Virus record (IMG/VR): IMGVR_UViG_3300013006_002399
Span: 1-29,090 of that record
Reading direction: 5' to 3' (one strand)
Source of the DNA: a virus
Length of the DNA stretch: 29,090 nt
The notes under the pieces are model-generated. The model was not told where the DNA came from, did not search any database, and saw nothing but the letters and a program-made list of their open reading frames with translations. The position numbers and the translations under genes are program-made. This document shows positions 7,450 to 28,527 of this stretch, piece after piece. The first letter of the stretch is position 1, and each line of letters begins with the position of its first letter.

Positions 7450-8517
7450 ATGACTAAGGAAGATTCCAAGGCAAGTGGGGAACTTATAGATCAAACGATC
7501 AAGAAGTTCTTAGATGATAACCTTCTGTCTGAACAAGATTGGATTGATAGTGGATGTATTTGGTCTGAACTAGAGGCGATCAAGTCAGACTATCTTGATC
7601 GGACAGAGGAACTCAACAAGACGGCTGAGTTTTGTGCTGGGATCATCCAGAAAATCCCGGATGTGCATTCAGTTCGATGGCGTGTCAAAGATGTGGATCA
7701 TGTGCTCAAAAAGATCGTACGTAAGAAAGCTGAAAAGAAGCCAAAATATGATGCAATTTCGGTAGCAAACTATCATGAAATCATTACTGATTTGATAGGT
7801 GTGCGGGCTCTACATCTTATCAAGGAGGATTGCTTTAGAATCGATGGTAATATTAGATCACTTTGGCCTTTAAAGGCAGATGAAACTCCTGTCGTCTATC
7901 TTCGAGAAGGAGATTCGGAATTACGTGGGCTTTTTGAGACATTGGATTTTCAAGTAGAAAATCATCTTTCTGGTTATCGCTCAATCCACTATATTTTTCA
8001 GACTAAACCTCTCCTGCGCACTATATCTTTTGAGGTGCAAGTTAGAACAATTTTTGAAGAAGGCTGGAGTGAAATTGATCATAAAGTCAGGTATCCAAAT
8101 TTCTCAAATAACCCCCACATAAATTTCTTTTTATCTATTTTCAATAGACTAGCTGGTAGTGCTGATGAGATGGGTAGCCTTGTTCGACAATTGACGCAAA
8201 TGATTAGTGCTCAAGAAGCAAAATTATTTTCATTGCAGGCAGAGCGTGATCAAGGTATAGCTAAAATAGAGAGTCTAATTGAGGAGTTAAAGCAGAAAGG
8301 AAATACTGTTATTGAAAATCAAGAAACAATTAAAGAGCTTGAGTCTGAGGTCAAAAAGCTGCAATCTGATTATTCATTAGAGAAATTTAAGAATAAATTG
8401 AGTGATTTAAATACAGTCAGCTCAATGAATATTTCTAAATTAAATTCTTATGAAGATAATATCAATTCAATTTTCGATCTTTTAAATAGTAAAGCTTCTA
8501 AATCTGTCAAGAAGTAA
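7450..8517 (+). CDS. RelA/SpoT-domain nucleotide pyrophosphokinase with coiled-coil tail
   Basis: A 355-aa protein with a synthetase domain of the small-alarmone-synthetase type. Visible motifs are RWRVKDVDHVLKKI (76-89), ITDLIGVRAL (112-121), GYRSIH (175-180, the guanine-stacking Tyr), and EVQVRT followed by WSEIDHKVRY (195-215, with the conserved Glu, Trp and His). No HD hydrolase domain precedes it. Residues about 250-340 form a coiled coil. The family makes (p)ppGpp or ppApp, or pyrophosphorylates tRNA (toxSAS), and includes phage-defence proteins such as CapRel. The ribosome site is GAGGGAG. A small antitoxin gene was not seen; the upstream membrane protein may be the partner. The family is certain, the product and role are not. 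Confidence 0.88.
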   Translation: MTKEDSKASGELIDQTIKKFLDDNLLSEQDWIDSGCIWSELEAIKSDYLDRTEELNKTAEFCAGIIQKIPDVHSVRWRVKDVDHVLKKIVRKKAEKKPKYDAISVANYHEIITDLIGVRALHLIKEDCFRIDGNIRSLWPLKADETPVVYLREGDSELRGLFETLDFQVENHLSGYRSIHYIFQTKPLLRTISFEVQVRTIFEEGWSEIDHKVRYPNFSNNPHINFFLSIFNRLAGSADEMGSLVRQLTQMISAQEAKLFSLQAERDQGIAKIESLIEELKQKGNTVIENQETIKELESEVKKLQSDYSLEKFKNKLSDLNTVSSMNISKLNSYEDNINSIFDLLNSKASKSVKK

Positions 8518-9404: not shown

Positions 9405-9539
9405 CTTGTAGTGCTTAAGAATTCCACCACCCAGAACTGCGAATTTTGGGTGGTAGACCGAGCAAGGTTCGCAGTACCGTCACTACAAGAAAACGGCGGG
9501 CGCAAGGCCCCCTCACTCGATCTACCATAACGAATGGTA
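9405..9539 (+). ncRNA. C4-antisense-like structured RNA
   Basis: A dense set of helices in a stretch with no gene. CTTGTAGTG (9405-9413) pairs with CACTACAAG (9481-9489) and closes the structure. Inside, ACCACCCAGAA and TTTTGGGTGGT form an 11-bp stem (9426-9454) whose 7-base loop is exactly CTGCGAA, the complement of TTCGCAG at 9468-9474. TGGTAGACCGAG can pair with CTCGATCTACCA (9516-9527), and TACCAT/ATGGTA (9523-9539) is a further hairpin. One G-U pair in the main stem is allowed only in + strand RNA. Layout and words resemble, from memory, the phage P1/P7 C4 antisense RNA family. The 3' part is complementary to DNA 115-135 bases downstream (9603-9626), as expected for C4 and its target. 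Confidence 0.55.
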
Positions 9540-9572
9540 CAACGAGCTATCCAGGTATCCCAGAAAATAGGC

Positions 9573-9595
9573 AAAAAAAAGCCGCCTAGCAGCGG
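9573..9595 (-). terminator. Rho-independent terminator on the minus strand
   Basis: In minus-strand RNA GCTGC-TAG-GCGGC makes a short stem with one U-G wobble, followed by eight T. The wobble would be a mismatch on the other strand, so it acts on the minus strand. No protein gene ends here, so it probably ends a small RNA. Confidence 0.55.
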
Positions 9596-9651
9596 ATACC
9601 TGCTTGTAGTTACTGCGAGCTGCGAAACTCGGTGAAAGATTTTGCTTTCAC
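9573..9651 (-). ncRNA. Candidate small RNA opposite the C4-like target
   Basis: A minus-strand promoter (TTGACT at 9686-9681, 17 bases, AATGAT at 9663-9658) would start RNA near 9651. A perfect hairpin follows at once (GTGAAAG/CTTTCAC, 9632-9651). Then come the words TTCGCAG and ACTACAAG, which also occur in the C4-like RNA, and a terminator with eight T. The length would be about 79 bases. Expression is not shown by sequence alone. Confidence 0.35.
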
Positions 9652-11625: not shown

Positions 11626-12093
11626 ATGGGCAAATACGAACAAAACTTGCCTGAACAACCATCCAAACGAACGGTCAAGCTCTATAACGAAGGCGTCATG
11701 TGCGGCTTTCCACTGCCGTCTGCCGACTACGTACAGGAAAATATCAACGTCCACGAGCTCCTCGTGCCGAACGATGTCTCGTGCTTCATCATGCGTGCCG
11801 TATCGATATCAATGATCTATGCCGGAATTTTGCCGGGAGACTATCTCATCGTGGATATGTCTAAAAAACCCTGCAATCACAGCATCGTTGTGGCCGTAGT
11901 AGACGGTGGCCTGTGCTGCAAGGTTTACCGGAGCGAGAAGGGCCGCGTGTGGCTCGAATCGGCCGAAGCAAAGCCCATATGTGTGACAGGCTGGGAGGGT
12001 CAGATCTGGGGCACCGTGATATCCAGCTTTCGCCGTGTAGACAGGTATCTCGAGCCATGCGTACCGATCGTGCATTCGCACTCTGCGATATAA
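11626..12093 (+). CDS. umuD: UmuD-like SOS mutagenesis protein
   Basis: A 155-aa S24-family self-cleaving protein. The cleavage site C26-G27 (VMCGFPLPSADYV) matches E. coli UmuD, the catalytic Ser is S62 (ISMI) and the Lys is K99 (CCKVY). RecA filaments would trigger cleavage to UmuD', which then joins UmuC as DNA polymerase V for translesion synthesis. The usual GDSM around the Ser is changed to SISM, but the Ser itself is kept. The N-terminus before the cleavage site has no HTH, so this is not a LexA/CI repressor. It overlaps umuC by 37 bases. The C-terminal tail after VISSFRRV is slightly longer than in E. coli. Confidence 0.9.
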   Translation: MGKYEQNLPEQPSKRTVKLYNEGVMCGFPLPSADYVQENINVHELLVPNDVSCFIMRAVSISMIYAGILPGDYLIVDMSKKPCNHSIVVAVVDGGLCCKVYRSEKGRVWLESAEAKPICVTGWEGQIWGTVISSFRRVDRYLEPCVPIVHSHSAI

Positions 12094-13400
12094 ACAATGC
12101 TTACGCCTCGATGGAAACTTTGTTTAACCCATCGCTCCGTGACCGTCCGCTCGTCGTGCTGTCGAATAACGACGGTTGCGTCGTAGCGAGATCGGCGTCC
12201 GCTAAAAAATTGGGTATCAAAATGGGTGCGCCATGGTTTGAGCTCAAAGAGCTGGCCAAAGCGCATGACATCGTCGCGCTGTCGAGTAACTATGTGCTAT
12301 ATGGCGAAATGTCGCGCCGTTTCGTCGCAGTGCTCGAGTCTTGCGTCTGTCCGGACGACGTCGAGCAATACTCGATAGATGAGGTCTTCATAGATCTCAG
12401 CTCGTATCAGGCACTGCATGACCTGACTGAGCTCGGAAAGACGCTCCGGGATCGCGTGGCAGGGCATATCGGCCTGCAGATCTGCGTAGGGATCGGGCAA
12501 AGTAAAACTCGGGCTAAATTGGCGAACCATTGGGCCAAAAAGCATGCTCAGTTCGGCGGTGTGTGTAACTTCCTCGAAATGGATCAAGCAACAGTAGACC
12601 GTCGTATGGCACGTACCGAAGTGGGTGAGGTCTGGAATGTGGGGCGTAAACAGGTCAAGAAGCTCAACTCATTGGGGATCGCGTCAGTGCTGGATCTGGC
12701 GCAGGCAGATCCAGACGAGCTGCTGCACCGCAGTAGCGAGATGACTGACCGGAATGGCCGCGTGCGCAATCAAAAGGCATTCAGCGTGGTGATGGCAAGG
12801 ACAATACGCGAACTCAGGGGCGAGACCTGCTATGAGCTGGAAAAAGACAAGAAACCGCGTAAGCAGATCATCTCCTCGCGTTCTTTCGGCGAGCTGGTGA
12901 CACAGCGGGAGCCGATCGAGCAGGCGCTCCGATACTATGTGGCCAATGCGGTGCGCAAACTGATGGATGATCGGTCTGTCGCCGGCACGATCACTGTCTT
13001 CATCCATACCAACAGATTTCGCACCCAAGACCAGCAGTACTCGAACCACTGCACCATCGATATAGACCCGCCGACCAATGATCTGATTGAGCTGACCAAA
13101 ATGGCTATCTTTGGCCTGAGCCGGATCTTCTATCCGAATTTCAATTACAAAAAGGCCGGCATCATCCTGTCGGATATCCAGCCACAGTCCGGGCTGAATC
13201 TGGATCTCTTTAGCGATCAGGTATGGGATGAAAAAGCCGAGCGTCTGATGACTGCGATGGCAGCGGTGGCAGCCAAATTTGGCCGTGATACGGTGAAGAT
13301 CGGGAATGTAGATCATAAGCTGCCGGACTGGGAACGAAAAAGTGAAAACCAGTCACCGCTCTATCTAGCCGATATCGATCAGGTGCCTATCGTCTACTGA
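12057..13400 (+). CDS. umuC: UmuC-like Y-family DNA polymerase V subunit
   Basis: A 447-aa translesion polymerase. Catalytic residues are D11 (ALCDINNAYAS), D108 and E109 (SIDEVF). It has the typical LSNNDGCVVARS stretch and, in the C-terminal region, GLNLDLF, which looks like a beta-clamp binding motif. The frame is open upstream to 11913, but the true start must be the ATG at 12057 because UmuC begins just before the FALCD motif. With umuD it forms one unit that would be induced by DNA damage. Its end overlaps the convergent SRAP gene by 14 bases. Confidence 0.92.
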   Translation: MRTDRAFALCDINNAYASMETLFNPSLRDRPLVVLSNNDGCVVARSASAKKLGIKMGAPWFELKELAKAHDIVALSSNYVLYGEMSRRFVAVLESCVCPDDVEQYSIDEVFIDLSSYQALHDLTELGKTLRDRVAGHIGLQICVGIGQSKTRAKLANHWAKKHAQFGGVCNFLEMDQATVDRRMARTEVGEVWNVGRKQVKKLNSLGIASVLDLAQADPDELLHRSSEMTDRNGRVRNQKAFSVVMARTIRELRGETCYELEKDKKPRKQIISSRSFGELVTQREPIEQALRYYVANAVRKLMDDRSVAGTITVFIHTNRFRTQDQQYSNHCTIDIDPPTNDLIELTKMAIFGLSRIFYPNFNYKKAGIILSDIQPQSGLNLDLFSDQVWDEKAERLMTAMAAVAAKFGRDTVKIGNVDHKLPDWERKSENQSPLYLADIDQVPIVY

Positions 13401-14045
13401 TGGTAGAGGCCTTCTTGGCTCGCGGTGGTAGCGGGTCTGGCGTGGCCATGTAGTCATCTGCAGGGAACAGATTCAGCAGCTCGCGTGCGTCGCGCTCTGT
13501 CGCATGCAGCCATGCATGCCAATCGGTCTGCGGAATGACCACAATGGAGCGCTTCTCATCATCAGGCTTGTGCATACGGCTCATCAATGGGTGGGTGGCA
13601 GAGTTAACCGTCAACATCGTGAAAGTCCGGACGTGACTGCCGATGACATCATCCTCCCAGATATCCCAGATGCCGGCAATGGTGAAGGGTGCATGGTCTG
13701 TGCGCTCGATGCGCTGACGGACGGCCGTACCTGTCTCGTAGTAAGGCTCAAAAATGGCCTCGACCGGCACTAGGGCAAACTGCTGCTGCCGCCATGCTGA
13801 TCTGAACGAGGGTAGTGCGGCGACTGTCTCCGATAGGGCATTCATGGAGGCATTGGATTTGGAATAGCTCAGGCTGTGGGCCCAGTGCGGAACCAGCCCG
13901 AAGGATGCCTCTCGTAGAAAGAGCTGCTCGGATTCATTGGTGATGATGGGGCTATAGGTGTTTGGCCAGACTTCGACAGGAGAGTCGAAGTTGGCCGGTG
14001 GCAGGCCGAGGGAGGTAGTATTGGCGGTTTGTAATTGACGCACAT
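13387..14045 (-). pseudogene. SRAP (YedK/HMCES-like) gene, frameshifted at codon 7
   Basis: SRAP proteins cross-link abasic sites in single-stranded DNA through Cys2. The body is well kept: FGLVPHWA, ARSETV-like NALSETVAALPSFR, the catalytic Glu in VPVEAIFEPYYETG and the HKPDDEKRSIVV segment. The expected N-terminus MCVNYKP is encoded by the ATG at 14045, but in another frame. From about codon 7 the family sequence (ANTTSLGLPPANF) continues in the frame that starts at GTG 14043. One missing base near 14025 explains this. As read, a 218-aa protein from GTG would lack the catalytic Cys2, so the gene is dead or the base call is wrong. It lies beside umuDC, which fits a DNA-repair cassette. Confidence 0.8.
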
Positions 14046-18964: not shown

Positions 18965-19437
18965 TCAGTCGTCCTGACCGGAGCGGGCACGTGCGCGATC
19001 ATGCCAGCCCATCAACTCATCGAGATCCATCTCGTCGCAGTCTCGCGGTGTCCAATGGAATATCACCGCGAGATCAGCGATCACGTCGTCTACGCAGTCG
19101 GGGAGCTCAATGCCGGCATCTGCGTAGCGTCTAAAAAAGTCACGATACCCATCTGCAGCTTGACCAGATCCTGTAAATCAAGGTTGCCCACGTCGGCCTC
19201 AGTCAGGCTTGGAAAGCTGATACGGGGAACCAGCTTGATCAACGCATCGACGTCACCCTGCAGCACCGACGTGATGCTCAGGCCGCGCAGGGTTTGACCC
19301 TTGGGTTTGTACAGGATGACCTCGGTGATGGTCTGGCTGCCACGGGCAAAGCCGGCACCGAGGGTGATGAGGGTCTGGTTGGGATCTTGGATCGCGGCGC
19401 GGTTGGCTTCGATCTGTTCTTCAGTCAGTTTTGTCAT
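18965..19437 (-). CDS. E: Tail assembly chaperone E with -1 frameshift product E+E'
   Basis: The zero frame (19437-19090) encodes a 115-aa gpE-like tail assembly protein. Near its end the heptamer T TTT TTA (19138-19132) lies in the correct phase for a -1 slip (ACT TTT TTA). The -1 frame then runs 55 codons to TGA at 18965 and encodes a clear gpE' domain (VIFHWTPRDCDEMDLDELMGW). This is the arrangement known for P2 E/E' and analogous to lambda G/GT. The extended product is thought to bring tube subunits to the tape measure. The E start has GGAG 6 bases upstream. Confidence 0.9.
19132..19138 (-). promoter_or_regulatory. -1 ribosomal frameshift site for E/E'
   Basis: TTTTTTA in phase with the E frame. 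It joins gpE to the E' frame that ends at 18965. Confidence 0.85.
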
Positions 19438-19504: not shown

Positions 19505-20011
19505 TTAGAGACCGAGTGCCTGCATGATGTTCAACGCGAGATCGTTGTCTCCCCATTTGTCGATGCCATTGACGAGATCGATCTCGAAAATAGGTAGGCC
19601 ATCGACGATGAGGCGTTGGTAGGTGACGTTGTAGTCGAGCTGGTACTGGCTCTTTTCGCCCAGTTTGGCGGTGCTGGGGTCAAAGTTGATGGCCTCACCG
19701 CGCATATACCACTCGGCACTCATGATGGCGCAGGTGTCCTGGCGCTGATATGCACCGACATAGCGCAATGGGAGATCCGAGGCACCGCAAACGGCTAGTT
19801 GGCTGATGATGGATGGATCGAAGCCGGCATATTTGATACTGGCCTCGAACTTCTCATAACCAAAGGTCAGATCAACGTCACCGATCATGCCGGCACCGCG
19901 ATAGGTGTCGGCTTTTTTCTTGATCTTGGGCAGGTCGATGCTTTCGGCCACACCCGCATAGTTGGTCATATTGGCAAAGACGTTAAAGTTTTTAAGTGTG
20001 CGTGGAAGCAT
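19505..20011 (-). CDS. FII: Major tail tube protein FII
   Basis: A 168-aa homologue of P2 FII, which polymerises into the inner tube. MLPRTLKNFNVF at the start, LPKIKKKADTYRGAGMIGDVDL and the C-terminal VDLVNGIDKWGDNDLALNIMQALGL are typical. AGGA lies before the ATG. It sits directly behind the C-terminal sheath half, as in P2 where FI precedes FII. Confidence 0.94.
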   Translation of the reverse strand: MLPRTLKNFNVFANMTNYAGVAESIDLPKIKKKADTYRGAGMIGDVDLTFGYEKFEASIKYAGFDPSIISQLAVCGASDLPLRYVGAYQRQDTCAIMSAEWYMRGEAINFDPSTAKLGEKSQYQLDYNVTYQRLIVDGLPIFEIDLVNGIDKWGDNDLALNIMQALGL

Positions 20012-20048: not shown

Positions 20049-20666
20049 TCAGGCAGCGGCAGCGATGAGTTGGGCGAAGTTGACCAGATAGCGGCTCGTG
20101 ATCCGCTGGTTCAGACCGATCTGCTCGAGCGGCGGTACAGGGGTGTAGTCGTAGTCGACCCAGAATTGCCCGGAGGCGAGCAGATCGGCTGGGTTCTCAT
20201 CGGGATCAAACCAGACCGAAGCGCCGATGAATTTGCCGCCCTTGACGAGCTGGCGCAGCACGGCGTTGATCGAGTCGATGATGTCCTTGGCCAGAAAGCC
20301 GGTGAGGGGCTGGTCAACGAAGGGGAAAACACCGTTGACGATGGTATCGAGCAGGAACTGGGCACTCCGGGTATAGACCTCAAATGCAAACTCTGGATCT
20401 GACGAGCAGGTCCGGTTGCCCCAGAATCGGAAGCCGTTATGGTTGATCAGGGTGGTGACGTTGCCACTGTTCAGGGCAGCTGCGTCGGTGTCCTGATCTT
20501 CCAGATCCCACGATACGGGCATGCTGATGCCAGTCGGGCCATTGACCACGACGTTGGACAGGGATTTCTGGAAGCCGATGCGCGTGTCGATATCTGCGCG
20601 CAGCGCGGCTGCAAGTGCGGCTGTAGGCAGGATGCCAGGGCCGTAGGTTGGTGTAGTCGTGGGCAT
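20049..20666 (-). CDS. FI: Tail sheath FI, C-terminal half as a separate gene
   Basis: A 205-aa protein starting at ATG 20666 with GGAG six bases upstream. It corresponds to the second half of P2 FI: ILPTAALAAALRADIDTR, then LSNVVVNGPTGIS, WDLED, TTLINHNGFRFWGNRTCSSDPEFAFEVYTR and the closing DYDYTPVPPLEQ and QRITSRYL. These parts interlock sheath subunits and hold the contraction joints. In P2 they belong to one chain of 396 aa. The frame is the same as that of the preceding Ig-like domain, with only one TAA between. A TTG at 20678 is a weaker start. Function would require assembly with the N-terminal half in trans. Confidence 0.88.
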   Translation of the reverse strand: MPTTTPTYGPGILPTAALAAALRADIDTRIGFQKSLSNVVVNGPTGISMPVSWDLEDQDTDAAALNSGNVTTLINHNGFRFWGNRTCSSDPEFAFEVYTRSAQFLLDTIVNGVFPFVDQPLTGFLAKDIIDSINAVLRQLVKGGKFIGASVWFDPDENPADLLASGQFWVDYDYTPVPPLEQIGLNQRITSRYLVNFAQLIAAAA

Positions 20667-20723
20667 GATGGGCTCCAAGTGTGGGGTTGAGCGGTGGCTT
20701 ATGTCATCGCGGACAATCAGTGC

Positions 20724-21140
20724 TTACTTCGGGTAATTCCATGAGGCCGTCTGAACAGTGTCAGTCGTGCCTACAATGTGTAACGAATAGGTGCCTGATG
20801 CGGCAAAGGCACTGCTATCAAGCGGGGCATTGCCGTTCGGGGTATAGGCCAATAGAGCAAATGTCCACGTCGCTCCGTCTGGAGATACAACCAGTGCCGC
20901 AGGCTCAAGATTGCTATCGATGAAGGTCGTTGGATTACCTCCGCCCGGCGGGATGAAGGACACATAAAATTGCAAGGGCAGACCTGGTGTCGGTGGGTCG
21001 ATCGTGCCGCTATAGACCCCGTCTGATGGCAAATAGCCTTTGTCGTCCAGATACACTTTTGCTGTGAATGTTGGCGTCGGCGTTGGTGCTGGTCCCGGAG
21101 CCGGCGTAGGAGTTGGTCCTACGCCGGGGTCGGTTGAGAC
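20724..21140 (-). CDS. Ig-like domain frame reached by -1 frameshift from the sheath N-half
   Basis: Read from the slip site, this 138-codon frame begins VSTDPGVGPTPTPAPGPAP, a Pro/Thr linker. A beta-rich domain of about 105 residues follows (FTAKVYLDDKGYL, GLPLQFYVSFIPPG, ALVVSPDGATWTFALLAY, SGTYSLHIVG, TASWNYPK). The strand pattern and SGTYSLHIV near the end suggest an Ig-like fold. No ribosome site or good start precedes it in its own frame (only GTG at 21056 inside the fold), so it is probably made only as a fusion. The full product would be 195 sheath residues plus 138, or 333 aa. Ig-like domains added by frameshift are known from other phage virion proteins. Confidence 0.7.
   Translation of the reverse strand, partial: VSTDPGVGPTPTPAPGPAPTPTPTFTAKVYLDDKGYLPSDGVYSGTIDPPTPGLPLQFYVSFIPPGGGNPTTFIDSNLEPAALVVSPDGATWTFALLAYTPNGNAPLDSSAFAASGTYSLHIVGTTDTVQTASWNYPK
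21101..21127 (-). promoter_or_regulatory. Perfect hairpin downstream of the sheath slip site
   Basis: In minus-strand RNA CCGGCGTAGGA-CCAAC-TCCTACGCCGG is an 11-bp stem with a 5-base loop. It starts 12 bases after the slippery heptamer and contains the zero-frame TAG. It lacks a U-tract, so it is not a terminator. It fits a frameshift stimulator, although the spacer is longer than the usual 5-9 bases. Confidence 0.65.
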
Positions 21141-21724
21141 TTTCCCAGCACGTTACCTCCTGTGAACTCTGGCCAGATCAGCTCGATCTCGCGGTCACCG
21201 AGCGACGCGGCATAGGTATTTACAAGCTCTACGGTTGCCAGTGCATTGCCCTGAGCATCACGCGGGGTGGCGTAATACATCCCGCGCAGCTTCTTGGCCA
21301 CACTGATCATGGCCTGATCGACGTCTGGATTCTCAAGCTCTGGGGCAACGAGGATCTTGGGTGTGACGCTGGTGATCGATTTGGCATTGAGTAGTGCCAT
21401 CAGCCCGGTACGAGCGCCGGATTCATTGACACCCCCAATGACGCTGGTCTTGTCGCCACCGGATGCGCGAACCACGACCATCATGGGATTACCGATCAAC
21501 TGCATGGTCTCAAGCGCACGGCGCAAACTGCCGTCATAGCCGGCTTTACTGATGGCCTTGCTGATACTGGTCACCAGCACCGGTGTGTCGACTGGAAAGA
21601 AGGTTGCGTCGGCATCTGAGGCATACGCGACGAGGCCAATAATGGCGGTATTGGTTGCCTGAATCGGGATCGCGCCTGAACTTTGCTCTTGGGCGGTGAC
21701 GCCGTGGACGATGGTCGTTGACAT
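21119..21724 (-). CDS. FI: Tail sheath FI, N-terminal half
   Basis: A 201-aa protein that matches only the first half of P2-type sheath proteins: HGVTAQEQ, AIIGLVAYASDADATFFP, VLVTSISKAISKAGYDGSL, PKILVAPELENPDV and RGMYYATPRDAQG, ending with REIELIWPEFTGGNVL. In P2 FI the WPDF stretch is followed in the same chain by the ALGLRAKID helix. Here six residues follow the slip site and translation stops. GGAG lies 9 bases before the ATG. With the frameshift it becomes the N-sheath-Ig fusion. The split point falls in a loop, so the halves could still assemble. Confidence 0.88.
   Translation of the reverse strand: MSTTIVHGVTAQEQSSGAIPIQATNTAIIGLVAYASDADATFFPVDTPVLVTSISKAISKAGYDGSLRRALETMQLIGNPMMVVVRASGGDKTSVIGGVNESGARTGLMALLNAKSITSVTPKILVAPELENPDVDQAMISVAKKLRGMYYATPRDAQGNALATVELVNTYAASLGDREIELIWPEFTGGNVLGKSQPTPA
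21140..21146 (-). promoter_or_regulatory. GGGAAAG -1 slippery heptamer in the sheath gene
   Basis: G GGA AAG lies in the right phase (CTG GGA AAG TCT) six codons before the stop. This is the same heptamer as the lambda G/GT site. Slipping by -1 enters the open linker and Ig-like frame. Confidence 0.7.
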
Positions 21725-21753: not shown

Positions 21754-22878
21754 CTATGCAGTGAGCTGAATCACTTCCCACGAAAAATAGATGCCGTTGG
21801 TCATATAGTTTGGAGGTGACGCGCTGATCGTCCCGATAGTGCTGAAATCCAGCGTAAAACCGCTGGCATTTGGGGACGGGATAGGGTGCGACACGACAAC
21901 CTGAGAGCTGGAGTCACCGAAGGGAACTGAGGTGGCACAGTAACCAGTGGCTCGGATGAGGTATTTGTTATTGGTCAAGTCGATGGCTGGAGAGCAATTC
22001 ACTGCGGCAGACCCCGCAGGGCCTGTGCCATTCAAGTTGATGCTGCTGACATCATGAGACCAGCCTGATGACGATGCCTTCGAGGGTGTCTGGTTGGATA
22101 TAGACGCGTAATATCCGGCCGCAATCTGCCGTGGATATGCACCTCCTAAAGCGGCTATCTCATCCTGCAGATTCTGGAACTTGGTCGCGTCATCCTGCAT
22201 GTGGTTGGTGACTGTGGTGGCCAATGTTTGACGCAGGGCTGTCTCATTATCAAGCGAGGTCTGCAGGGCAGCTGCAAGGGCTACGTCCTCGTTATGCGAA
22301 TAATTTTCCGCATCAGACTTTGCTTGATCGGTATAGGCTTCTGCGTCCGATTTGGCCTGAGCAATCGCCGTATTCACTGCCGTTTGATTGGCATTGAACG
22401 TCGGGATAGTGACGAAATTTTCGTTCACCCATGCTTCGGTGGCGTAGACGATGTTCGGGTTGACCTGAAGGATGATTGTACCCAGACCCGTCGTGGCGAG
22501 ATCCATCTCCAGCGTGGTGACGCCACTTGCACCCTCACCGATGGCCGGCCGATAGCCGCCGTGGAAATTGCCCAGATAGACCAGTTGGCCAGTCTCATCG
22601 AGCAGGCCGATCTCTTGCTGGTTGAATCCACCGACATCTGCCGGGATGGTGACCATGACCTTGACCAGATTTGGCGATACCGGGATCACGCTATCGACGG
22701 GCAGCCGGGCACGTTCATTTACCAGAGCAGTCGCGTCGATGCGGGAGTCGGGCAGATAGGGCTGGCCATTGGCATCACCCATCACAAAAGAGGTGATCTG
22801 AAAAGGCGTACCGGCCTGTGCCTGCGCGAGCTTGGTGCTACCGTGAGAAGTCAGGACGATGTAGTAACTGGTGGCCAT
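21754..22878 (-). CDS. H: Tail fibre protein H
   Basis: A 374-aa fibre. The first 160 residues are the P2 H-like attachment domain (MATSYYIVLTSHGSTKLAQA, GQPYLPDSRIDATALVNERAR, PADVGGFNQQEIGLLDE). A shaft at 165-245 has coiled-coil repeats (AQAKSDAEAYTDQAKSDAE), and the tip domain (250-374) is beta-rich with Gly/Ser and probably binds the receptor. It is short compared with P2 H (669 aa), and no gpG-like fibre chaperone follows. Its start overlaps the stop of I (TAATG). Confidence 0.9.
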   Translation of the reverse strand: MATSYYIVLTSHGSTKLAQAQAGTPFQITSFVMGDANGQPYLPDSRIDATALVNERARLPVDSVIPVSPNLVKVMVTIPADVGGFNQQEIGLLDETGQLVYLGNFHGGYRPAIGEGASGVTTLEMDLATTGLGTIILQVNPNIVYATEAWVNENFVTIPTFNANQTAVNTAIAQAKSDAEAYTDQAKSDAENYSHNEDVALAAALQTSLDNETALRQTLATTVTNHMQDDATKFQNLQDEIAALGGAYPRQIAAGYYASISNQTPSKASSSGWSHDVSSINLNGTGPAGSAAVNCSPAIDLTNNKYLIRATGYCATSVPFGDSSSQVVVSHPIPSPNASGFTLDFSTIGTISASPPNYMTNGIYFSWEVIQLTA

Positions 22879-27522: not shown

Positions 27523-28527
27523 TTAATTATCTGGAGGAGCGAGATCAAGTAGTGGCTGAACTTTTTCCTCAAATTCCTTCATATCCTTAGAGGATGAAAA
27601 ATCTTTGTCATCTTTCATCATTTTCATGACCAATTTTAGAGACTGCTGCATTGTTTTGAAGTTGTGTTCAAATCTTCTAGCTACTGGAGAGTGGTCATCA
27701 AATCGAGACATATAGAGTGACGATAAATAGAATTGAAATAAAATTAGATTAGCTGTCGTCTGATCTTCAATTTCGCTAAACCTTTTGAGAGCATATTTGT
27801 CAGCTTCAAGTTCTTGTTCGACAGAAAATTCAATATTTGTGTGGTGGTGATATAATATGTGAGCATATTCATGAAGTACTAAATAGGTTAATAAATATTT
27901 ATCTATGTCTGTACTTAATTTAATATAAGTTGCTATATTTTTTTGATTGTCGTTTATGTTTGAGTTGATCTTATCTCTATACCAGATTATGTAGTCATTC
28001 GTCCATGAAATGTTGCAATTTAGATCTTTGATCTTTTTGGAGTATTCGTAGAAAAGGGCAAGGTTGGAACATATTTGAGAAGGCTTGTCTTTTACAAGAA
28101 CTTCTCTTCGATATTTTCTGACTGCTTTTTCTTGGTAATCGGATACAAATGTAATAAAGTCGCTGTGATTATTTTTTGGATCATTTGTAGATAAATAATT
28201 ATACCATATCTCATATGTGGCAATTTGCTCATATATAAGAAAGTTCTGTAGGCATAGATCTATTTCAGAGGCTGTTGAGAAAGCTGGACGACCATGTGAG
28301 CAGTCTATGTTATCCGACTTTAGTAGTACAATTTTAATGCTTTTATCAGGAATCAGTGAGTCTAGATATGCGCTGTGGCTTGATTTATACCATGCTTCAT
28401 TCACGCTATCAGGAAATATAACACCAAAAAAAGGTGGGTTTTTGTAAGTGTTTCTATATGCATCCAACTCAGAGTCAGCTAGAGCTTGAGTACAAAACAA
28501 AAGTAAGCAAAAGAATATGGTTTTCAC
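27523..28527 (-). CDS. Secreted HEXXH metallopeptidase
   Basis: A 334-aa protein with a signal peptide (MKTIFFCLLLFCTQALADS, cleavage likely after ALA-18). The zinc-binding motif HEYAH (219-223) is followed about 16 residues later by EQELEADKYA (E239/E241, D243), the third-ligand motif of M48-like gluzincins. There are several cysteines (about 76, 92, 152, 171) that may form disulfides in the periplasm. The gene is AT-rich, unlike the tail genes, and begins within the stop of the membrane gene upstream (ATGA). A role in the cell envelope or against other phages is inference. The protease family assignment is fairly safe. Confidence 0.8.
   Translation of the reverse strand: MKTIFFCLLLFCTQALADSELDAYRNTYKNPPFFGVIFPDSVNEAWYKSSHSAYLDSLIPDKSIKIVLLKSDNIDCSHGRPAFSTASEIDLCLQNFLIYEQIATYEIWYNYLSTNDPKNNHSDFITFVSDYQEKAVRKYRREVLVKDKPSQICSNLALFYEYSKKIKDLNCNISWTNDYIIWYRDKINSNINDNQKNIATYIKLSTDIDKYLLTYLVLHEYAHILYHHHTNIEFSVEQELEADKYALKRFSEIEDQTTANLILFQFYLSSLYMSRFDDHSPVARRFEHNFKTMQQSLKLVMKMMKDDKDFSSSKDMKEFEEKVQPLLDLAPPDN

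Follow-up and report, generated by a model that had tools for sequence, protein, structure and literature searches.

A divided contractile tail sheath and a probable programmed −1 frameshift that would add exchangeable domains to it in Acinetobacter phages

Introduction

How is a contractile tail sheath made when its gene is interrupted in the middle of a domain, and what is the role of the reading frame lying between the two parts? The question is raised by an IMG/VR record of 29,090 bases, analyzed here in its entirety and hereafter called the window. From the nucleotide sequence, it was originally predicted that a P2-type sheath gene is split and that a programmed −1 frameshift appends an Ig-like domain to a fraction of the N-terminal halves. 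We have followed this up with profile searches, a survey of related loci (designated by L numbers), and folding and selection analyses. The N- and C-terminal parts of the sheath are called the N-half and C-half, and the domain encoded between them the cargo.

Results

The tail operon and other genes of the window

The window carries a P2-type tail operon on the minus strand in the order V, W, J, I, H-type fibre, sheath, FII tube, E, T, U, and D, the gene names being taken partly from the P2 gene order. The tail genes V to D around the split sheath are full-length open reading frames (ORFs), the GC content of this region reaches 0.58, and the sheath is located between the tail-fibre and tail-tube genes, as in the P2 tail operon:

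21754-22878, minus strand: H-type fibre gene, upstream of the sheath (PF12571)
19505-20011, minus strand: FII tube gene, downstream of the sheath (PF04985)
19132..19138, minus strand: T TTT TTA in gpE, the P2-type E/E+E' tail-chaperone −1 frameshift site

The P2-type E/E+E' frameshift site is TTTTTTG (PMC3091744), the form also found in L005, L050, and L051; the gpE site was used as a control for frameshifting within the same tail operon. Since the gpE/E' site is retained in the window and in these three relatives, frameshifting already belongs to this operon.

Several other features of the window are recorded here in their own right. A C4 antisense RNA (Rfam RF01695, 70.6 bits), also found in L050 and L002, and an isrK-like RNA (RF01394), scoring barely over its cut-off, are arranged in tandem at 9446-9651 on the minus strand. 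The region 7450-8517, in a low-GC island (GC 0.37), encodes a RelA/SpoT-domain protein (PF04607; E 7e-17) that adjoins a 488-residue protein without an assigned family and is possibly an alarmone-synthetase accessory or defence gene. An SOS-type block at 11626-14043 comprises a UmuD-like S24 peptidase, a UmuC-like Y-family polymerase, and an SRAP protein. At the edge of the tail module (27523-28527), a metallopeptidase-like protein with weak PADLOC matches to peptidase U41 and Lit is a candidate defence or exclusion gene.

Two adjacent genes together encode one complete sheath

The sheath region consists of two genes, the second with its own ribosome site:

21119..21724 including the stop codon, minus strand: sheath N-half gene, 201 residues; N-terminal arm and domain, and first part of the subtilisin-like domain
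20049..20666, minus strand: sheath C-half gene, 205 residues from ATG; remaining subtilisin-like domain and sheath C-terminal domain
20673..20676, minus strand: GGAG ribosome site of the C-half, followed after a short spacer by the ATG at 20666

The N-half matched Pfam PF22671 (Gp18 domain III N-terminal region; E 1.4e-6), aligned to residues 3-174 of the pyocin R2 sheath (3j9q; E 6.5e-12), and covered positions 19-273 of the PHROG 23 tail sheath profile. The C-half matched PF04984 (profile positions 98-168) and PF17482, aligned to residues 198-381 of 3j9q (E 3.7e-31), and covered PHROG 23 positions 285-474 (E 2e-70). Homology to the P2/pyocin-type sheath (PF04984/PF17482, PHROG 23) spans the N-terminal arm to the C-terminal domain. 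Instead of the single uninterrupted chain, which is the usual state of a sheath though not essential to homology, the window and about 30 relatives have two genes. These Pfam, PHROG, and pyocin-sheath alignments bear out the predicted mid-gene break of a P2-type sheath, and the GGAG and ATG proposed for the C-half are likewise present. The break interrupts the PF04984 domain at the loop that connects the IWPEF strand to the ALRA helix; in 110 of 122 intact relatives, this loop measures 21 residues. Beyond the break, the C-half opens with a YGxGIxTA motif found in alignments to be specific to the clade.

The split is common to one clade of Acinetobacter phages

Each half, as well as the C-half start that is specific to split sheaths, served as a query against IMG/VR and GTDB genomes, and split loci were further sought in Acinetobacter, family, and order genomes. 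All scans together yielded about 30 distinct split loci, as compared with 142 intact ones, so that the homologues with the same split for which the original prediction had proposed a search do exist. About 30 distinct phages and prophages of Acinetobacter have the break at the same residue, the known host being Acinetobacter in every case. Within the family, 12 of 349 genomes have the split (the identical 12 were recovered among 176 Acinetobacter genomes), and none was found in 390 other genomes of the order. Among the named phage matches inspected, the sole split member is MF417929 (Bracchivirus, human skin), in whose record both halves are annotated as distinct genes and the middle is also called as a separate gene.

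In a maximum-likelihood tree of 57 representatives, all 19 split sheaths are placed on one side of a branch with a support of 100/100, the window being the deepest branch of the split group, and intact relatives occupy the other side; at this support, the split has a single origin. A dN/dS of 0.01-0.10 shows strong purifying selection on the N-half and C-half alike. On these comparisons, the sheath split is close to certainly real.

Junction of the two genes in the window

The N-half terminates in IWPEFTGGNV LGK SQPTPA*, in which the codons from the leucine onward are CTG GGA AAG TCT CAA CCG ACC CCG GCG TAG. The following elements are found around this end:

21156..21161, minus strand: AGGAGG, an internal Shine-Dalgarno-like sequence that precedes the heptamer by 9 nt
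21140..21146, minus strand: slippery heptamer G GGA AAG, in phase, six codons ahead of the N-half stop
21101..21127, minus strand: hairpin, predicted stimulator, with a perfect 11-bp stem and a 5-nt loop, the N-half stop TAG inside
20724..21146, minus strand: −1 frame extension (about 130 codons), comprising a Pro/Thr linker and, beyond it, a beta-rich domain (about 110 residues), and ending at TAA

The in-phase heptamer six codons before the stop and the perfect 11-bp hairpin enclosing it are as originally predicted. The heptamer, also that of lambda G/GT, is the sole in-phase GGGAAAG among the 9,968 codons of the window ORFs. The hairpin has an outer 3-bp extension that begins 6 nt after the heptamer; its fold is more stable than those of dinucleotide shuffles (z -4.25) and of recodings that keep the same −1 protein (z -2.45), of which 987 of 1000 are weaker and only 13 as stable. 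Neither this extension nor the AGGAGG figured in the original prediction. The AGGAGG is a possible stimulator of the shift, and the same place is taken by GGAGGT in L031 and by AGGGAG in L005/L021. An upstream Shine-Dalgarno-like sequence, a slippery heptamer, and a downstream hairpin make up the dnaX arrangement, which the window junction resembles. Reading in −1 is uninterrupted from the heptamer past the N-half stop to the TAA at 20724, and the earliest possible start codon of this frame lies 30 codons in, without a ribosome site.

Frameshift signals across the relatives

In 11 non-redundant members (the window, L002, L027, L031, L003, L005/L021, L050/L053, L051/L134, L055, L141, and L217), the cargo is open over 118-650 codons in the −1 frame and never in +1, which has a chance of 2^-11 = 0.0005 provided that the members are independent. 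Where the 0 and −1 frames overlap, there is an in-phase slippery heptamer, G GGA AAG in four members at the same place (the window, L002, L027, and L031), and G GGG GAG in the other out-of-frame members (ten loci); prophages of A. courvalinii CCM 8635 and A. dispersus NCCP 16014 are examples of G GGG GAG cases. The latter is not a canonical XXXYYYZ heptamer, which counts against the frameshift model. In the approximately 57,000 ORF codons of 16 relatives, in-phase GGGGGAG occurs nine times, all nine at the N-half end, even though GGG (10%) and GAG (25%) are both minority codons there.

Most members have a stem such as CCCCCTCACA/TGTGAGGGGG located 5-7 nt downstream of the heptamer. Because the register of the stem differs between phages, RNAalifold, run on a MAFFT alignment, did not find a consensus hairpin, and folding of each sequence with a recoding test (1000 recodings per sequence, the same −1 protein being kept) replaced the alignment consensus. 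The stem surpassed the same-protein recodings in 11 of 14 sequences (z -2.5 to -6.2), pointing to a stimulatory structure selected at the nucleotide level: z ranged from -3.4 to -6.2 for L005, L021, L050, L053, L051, L134, L055, L141, and L217, and was about -2.5 for the window and L027. The excess was not significant in L002, which has a weak hairpin, or in L003 and L031, which have no supported hairpin. Between L051 and L134, whose cargo proteins are 98% identical, a paired C-G/U-A change and a change of register have left the stem intact. The recurring peptide SCEGAT opens otherwise dissimilar cargos because its codons form the 3' arm of the stem.

A Shine-Dalgarno sequence plus start ahead of the cargo was found in none of the members checked except for a partial case, L217, in which the −1 frame contains, 6 codons in, an ATG preceded by GGAG; this counts against the frameshift model, and independent initiation of the cargo is possible in L217. 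The conserved cargo start, SC[EAV]GA[TS], precedes most of the start codons. Coding constraint on the −1 frame was found in the relatives' cargos (dN/dS 0.13-0.39, for three pairs of frameshift cargos and one cargo common to a different phage); the window cargo has no relative with which to be compared. Taken together, the conserved break, heptamers in every out-of-frame lineage, the hairpins, the missing starts in most members, and purifying selection in both frames strongly support a programmed −1 frameshift at the N-half end, kept by most subclades, and the original interpretation that it would append a domain to a fraction of the N-halves of a split sheath is upheld by this comparative evidence.

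Other arrangements of the middle region

Frameshifting is not obligatory, since some members have in-frame cargo fusions: a domain of about 140 residues is joined in frame to the N-half in L004, L008-L010, L034-L038, and L062. The cargo is also in frame, with G GGA AAG kept, in L023, in L052:6014-6976, and in the second N-halves of L024 (L024:3941-4987) and L026 (L026:3917-4987). In these four loci the −1 frame shuts within a few codons, so that a shift there would give a short N-half, an inverted logic. The heptamer is missing in L025. Two tandem N-half genes precede one C-half in L024 (L024:2755-4987), L025, and L026, the first with an in-frame BspA-type leucine-rich repeat (LRR) domain and the second with a different domain; judged from the gene order, such tandem N-halves would constitute a gene-duplication route to a mixed sheath. 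A bare N-half adjoins the C-half in L007, L013, and L210, with an LRR coding remnant upstream; in L007 and L013, no insert separates the halves, which lie about 28 nt apart and differ in frame. A similar indifference to the mode of attachment has been noted in a review for Ig-like extensions of other phage proteins (PMC5009743), in which in-frame and out-of-frame versions coexist as in the split-sheath clade.

Cargo domains

The cargos of the relatives are quite unlike that of the window in domain type. Pfam searches identified BspA-type leucine-rich repeats in L003, L005, L055, and L024, DUF285 in L003, a LamG-like lectin in L217, and a weak beta-propeller signal in L002, and the L031 cargo is similar to parts of tail proteins from crAss-like and jumbo phages. 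L005 and L021 are 96% identical over the first 130 residues, and their ends beyond are unrelated. A 516-residue protein (L222:2293-3843) encoded beside the lysis genes in another Acinetobacter phage belongs to PHROG 5283 (function not assigned); the adaptor plus cargo of L141 recurs as its C-terminal part with 83% identity, and would, from this match, be an exchanged module shared between phages. The AlphaFold model of the shared adaptor, built from 10 sequences, had low confidence and no significant Foldseek match.

For the window cargo, no Pfam match was found even at E<=10, and no relatives in named phages, PDB, or IMG/VR. An AlphaFold model from the single sequence was of low confidence (pLDDT 54), beta-rich with strands predominating, and its best Foldseek match had E = 0.18, the matches listed being mostly Ig folds. 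Of what had been predicted for the extension, the open −1 frame, the Pro/Thr linker, the beta-rich character, and the lack of a ribosome site stand, while the Ig-like identity is unproven. The exchange of cargos and their family membership suggest a role in surface recognition, and accessory binding to the host surface is their likely function.

Weighing of alternative explanations

Might the pieces be debris of a defective prophage, in which the sheath gene was broken by mutation or by an assembly error? The window is a metagenomic contig, and L210/L223 does lie in a visibly decayed prophage, where the −1 frame containing its C-half closes early. Such an origin is very improbable for a break common to about 30 distinct loci of one well-supported clade, in which the halves evolve under the low dN/dS given above, the C-half keeps its conserved new start and YGxGIxTA motif, and the surrounding V to D genes are full-length with the gpE/E' site kept; the clade-wide break and the constraint on the halves exclude decay as a general explanation. 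We regard it as scarcely conceivable that the middle is a mobile element, intron, or intein that is later spliced. One fixed insertion site with variable content would suit such an element, but the N-half has its own stop, the C-half has its own ribosome site and ATG, and the insert-free halves of L007 and L013 stand in different frames about 28 nt apart. A search for Rfam intron families in the window and five relatives found none, and this candidate was rejected.

A real split in which the middle ORF is a gene in its own right, expressed from a start codon of its own or by termination-reinitiation, is unlikely, though L217 has GGAG and ATG near the start of the −1 frame, the annotators of MF417929 called the middle separately, and in L225 (L225:9228-10052) a 274-residue ORF with its own ATG immediately follows the N-half stop, an exception to the frameshift layout. 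Against it, the other members lack a Shine-Dalgarno sequence plus start ahead of the domain, every out-of-frame case is phased −1 with an in-phase heptamer and a selected hairpin at the overlap, the SC[EAV]GA[TS] cargo start lies upstream of most start codons, and the in-frame fusions of sister phages show that such domains can serve as an extension of the N-half. P2-type tails already shift −1 for the chaperone E/E+E' (PMC3091744), and the shift might mainly set the ratio of N-half to C-half or aid assembly, the added domain not being a binding module. We consider this quite unlikely: a shared assembly job would favour one conserved domain, whereas the cargos are unrelated in sequence and size (118-650 residues), belong to adhesion-type families, and are exchanged, and L007 and L013 have a bare N-half beside the C-half. 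The explanation that we prefer, and hold to be very probable from the comparison of sequences, is a two-chain sheath in which programmed −1 frameshifting would place an adhesion-type domain on a minority of the N-halves.

Discussion

By homology, the N-half and C-half of this two-chain sheath are expected to co-fold into one ordinary subunit of the P2/pyocin type. At the end of the N-half, a minority of ribosomes would shift to the −1 frame at the heptamer, usually assisted by the hairpin and sometimes by the upstream Shine-Dalgarno-like element. On G GGG GAG, the Gly-tRNA could re-pair from GGG to GGG, and the Glu-tRNA could move from GAG onto GGA, where its middle base pair would be G-U. The shift product would consist of the N-half, a Pro-rich hinge, and the added domain, which could exit without interrupting the sheath core because the break is placed in a loop, ahead of the helix with which the second half opens. 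Mixed sheaths would then bear a few copies of the added domain on the tail exterior, where these modular, adhesion- or lectin-like domains, swapped among phages, may assist host attachment. We lean slightly toward a more general view, that the sheath serves as a modular display scaffold of two complementing chains with a mid-fold free end carrying exchangeable receptor-binding modules that would aid host recognition, the copy number being set by frameshifting, in-frame fusion, or duplication of the N-half.

Ig-like or carbohydrate-binding extensions added by frameshifting are known for T3 gp10B, Lactobacillus phage A2, SPP1 gp17.1*, and TpeX of the 936 group (PMC5009743, PMC6669499, PMC9022992). 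As proposed for the present case, a minority of a polymeric virion protein gains a C-terminal surface domain by a frameshift near the stop, and the domains are exchangeable, with in-frame and out-of-frame versions coexisting. Those proteins are capsid or tail-tube proteins made as single intact chains, whereas here a contractile sheath is cut mid-domain into two chains and the added domain would emerge mid-fold. The sheath is not among the five classes of Ig-bearing virion proteins named in one review. Type 2 tail sheath proteins (Evseev et al. 2022; PMC9230969) have additional lateral domains, often Ig-like, proposed as adhesion aids, and the XM1 sheath has an insertion domain (PMC10457771); these likewise are extra sheath domains with a proposed adhesive role, but they are in frame in one chain and hence on every subunit. 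A text search of PMC9230969 found no occurrence of split sheaths or frameshifting. The −1 shift is shared with the P2 E/E+E' and lambda G/GT chaperones; tail chaperones leave the finished tail (PMC5009743), whereas the sheath product would stay in the virion as a structural component.

No report of a split phage sheath or of sheath frameshifting was found in the open-access literature, an absence that is weak evidence. In the type VI secretion system, the contractile sheath subunit is formed by two polypeptides, VipA/VipB (TssB/TssC). The originally predicted novelty of a two-chain sheath therefore holds for phages, as far as reports could be found, but not in general. VipA/VipB lies outside the P2/pyocin sheath branch, whereas the present break is inside PF04984 and has its own single origin; to our knowledge, VipA/VipB has no frameshift cargo. 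What would be new is the two-chain sheath in a phage, the site of the break, and the decoration by frameshifting, a combination that is unreported as far as we found.

Such loci are recorded as separate or hypothetical genes, which is a warning for annotation. The break offers a natural split site for studying a contractile sheath subunit built from two chains, and the clade a concrete system in which to ask why phage virions repeatedly carry decorations dosed by frameshifting. By the usual view, the tail sheath does nothing but contract and has an invariant single-chain subunit; in the present case, a whole lineage has a divided sheath that would carry swappable binding-type modules, their dose being set by translation.
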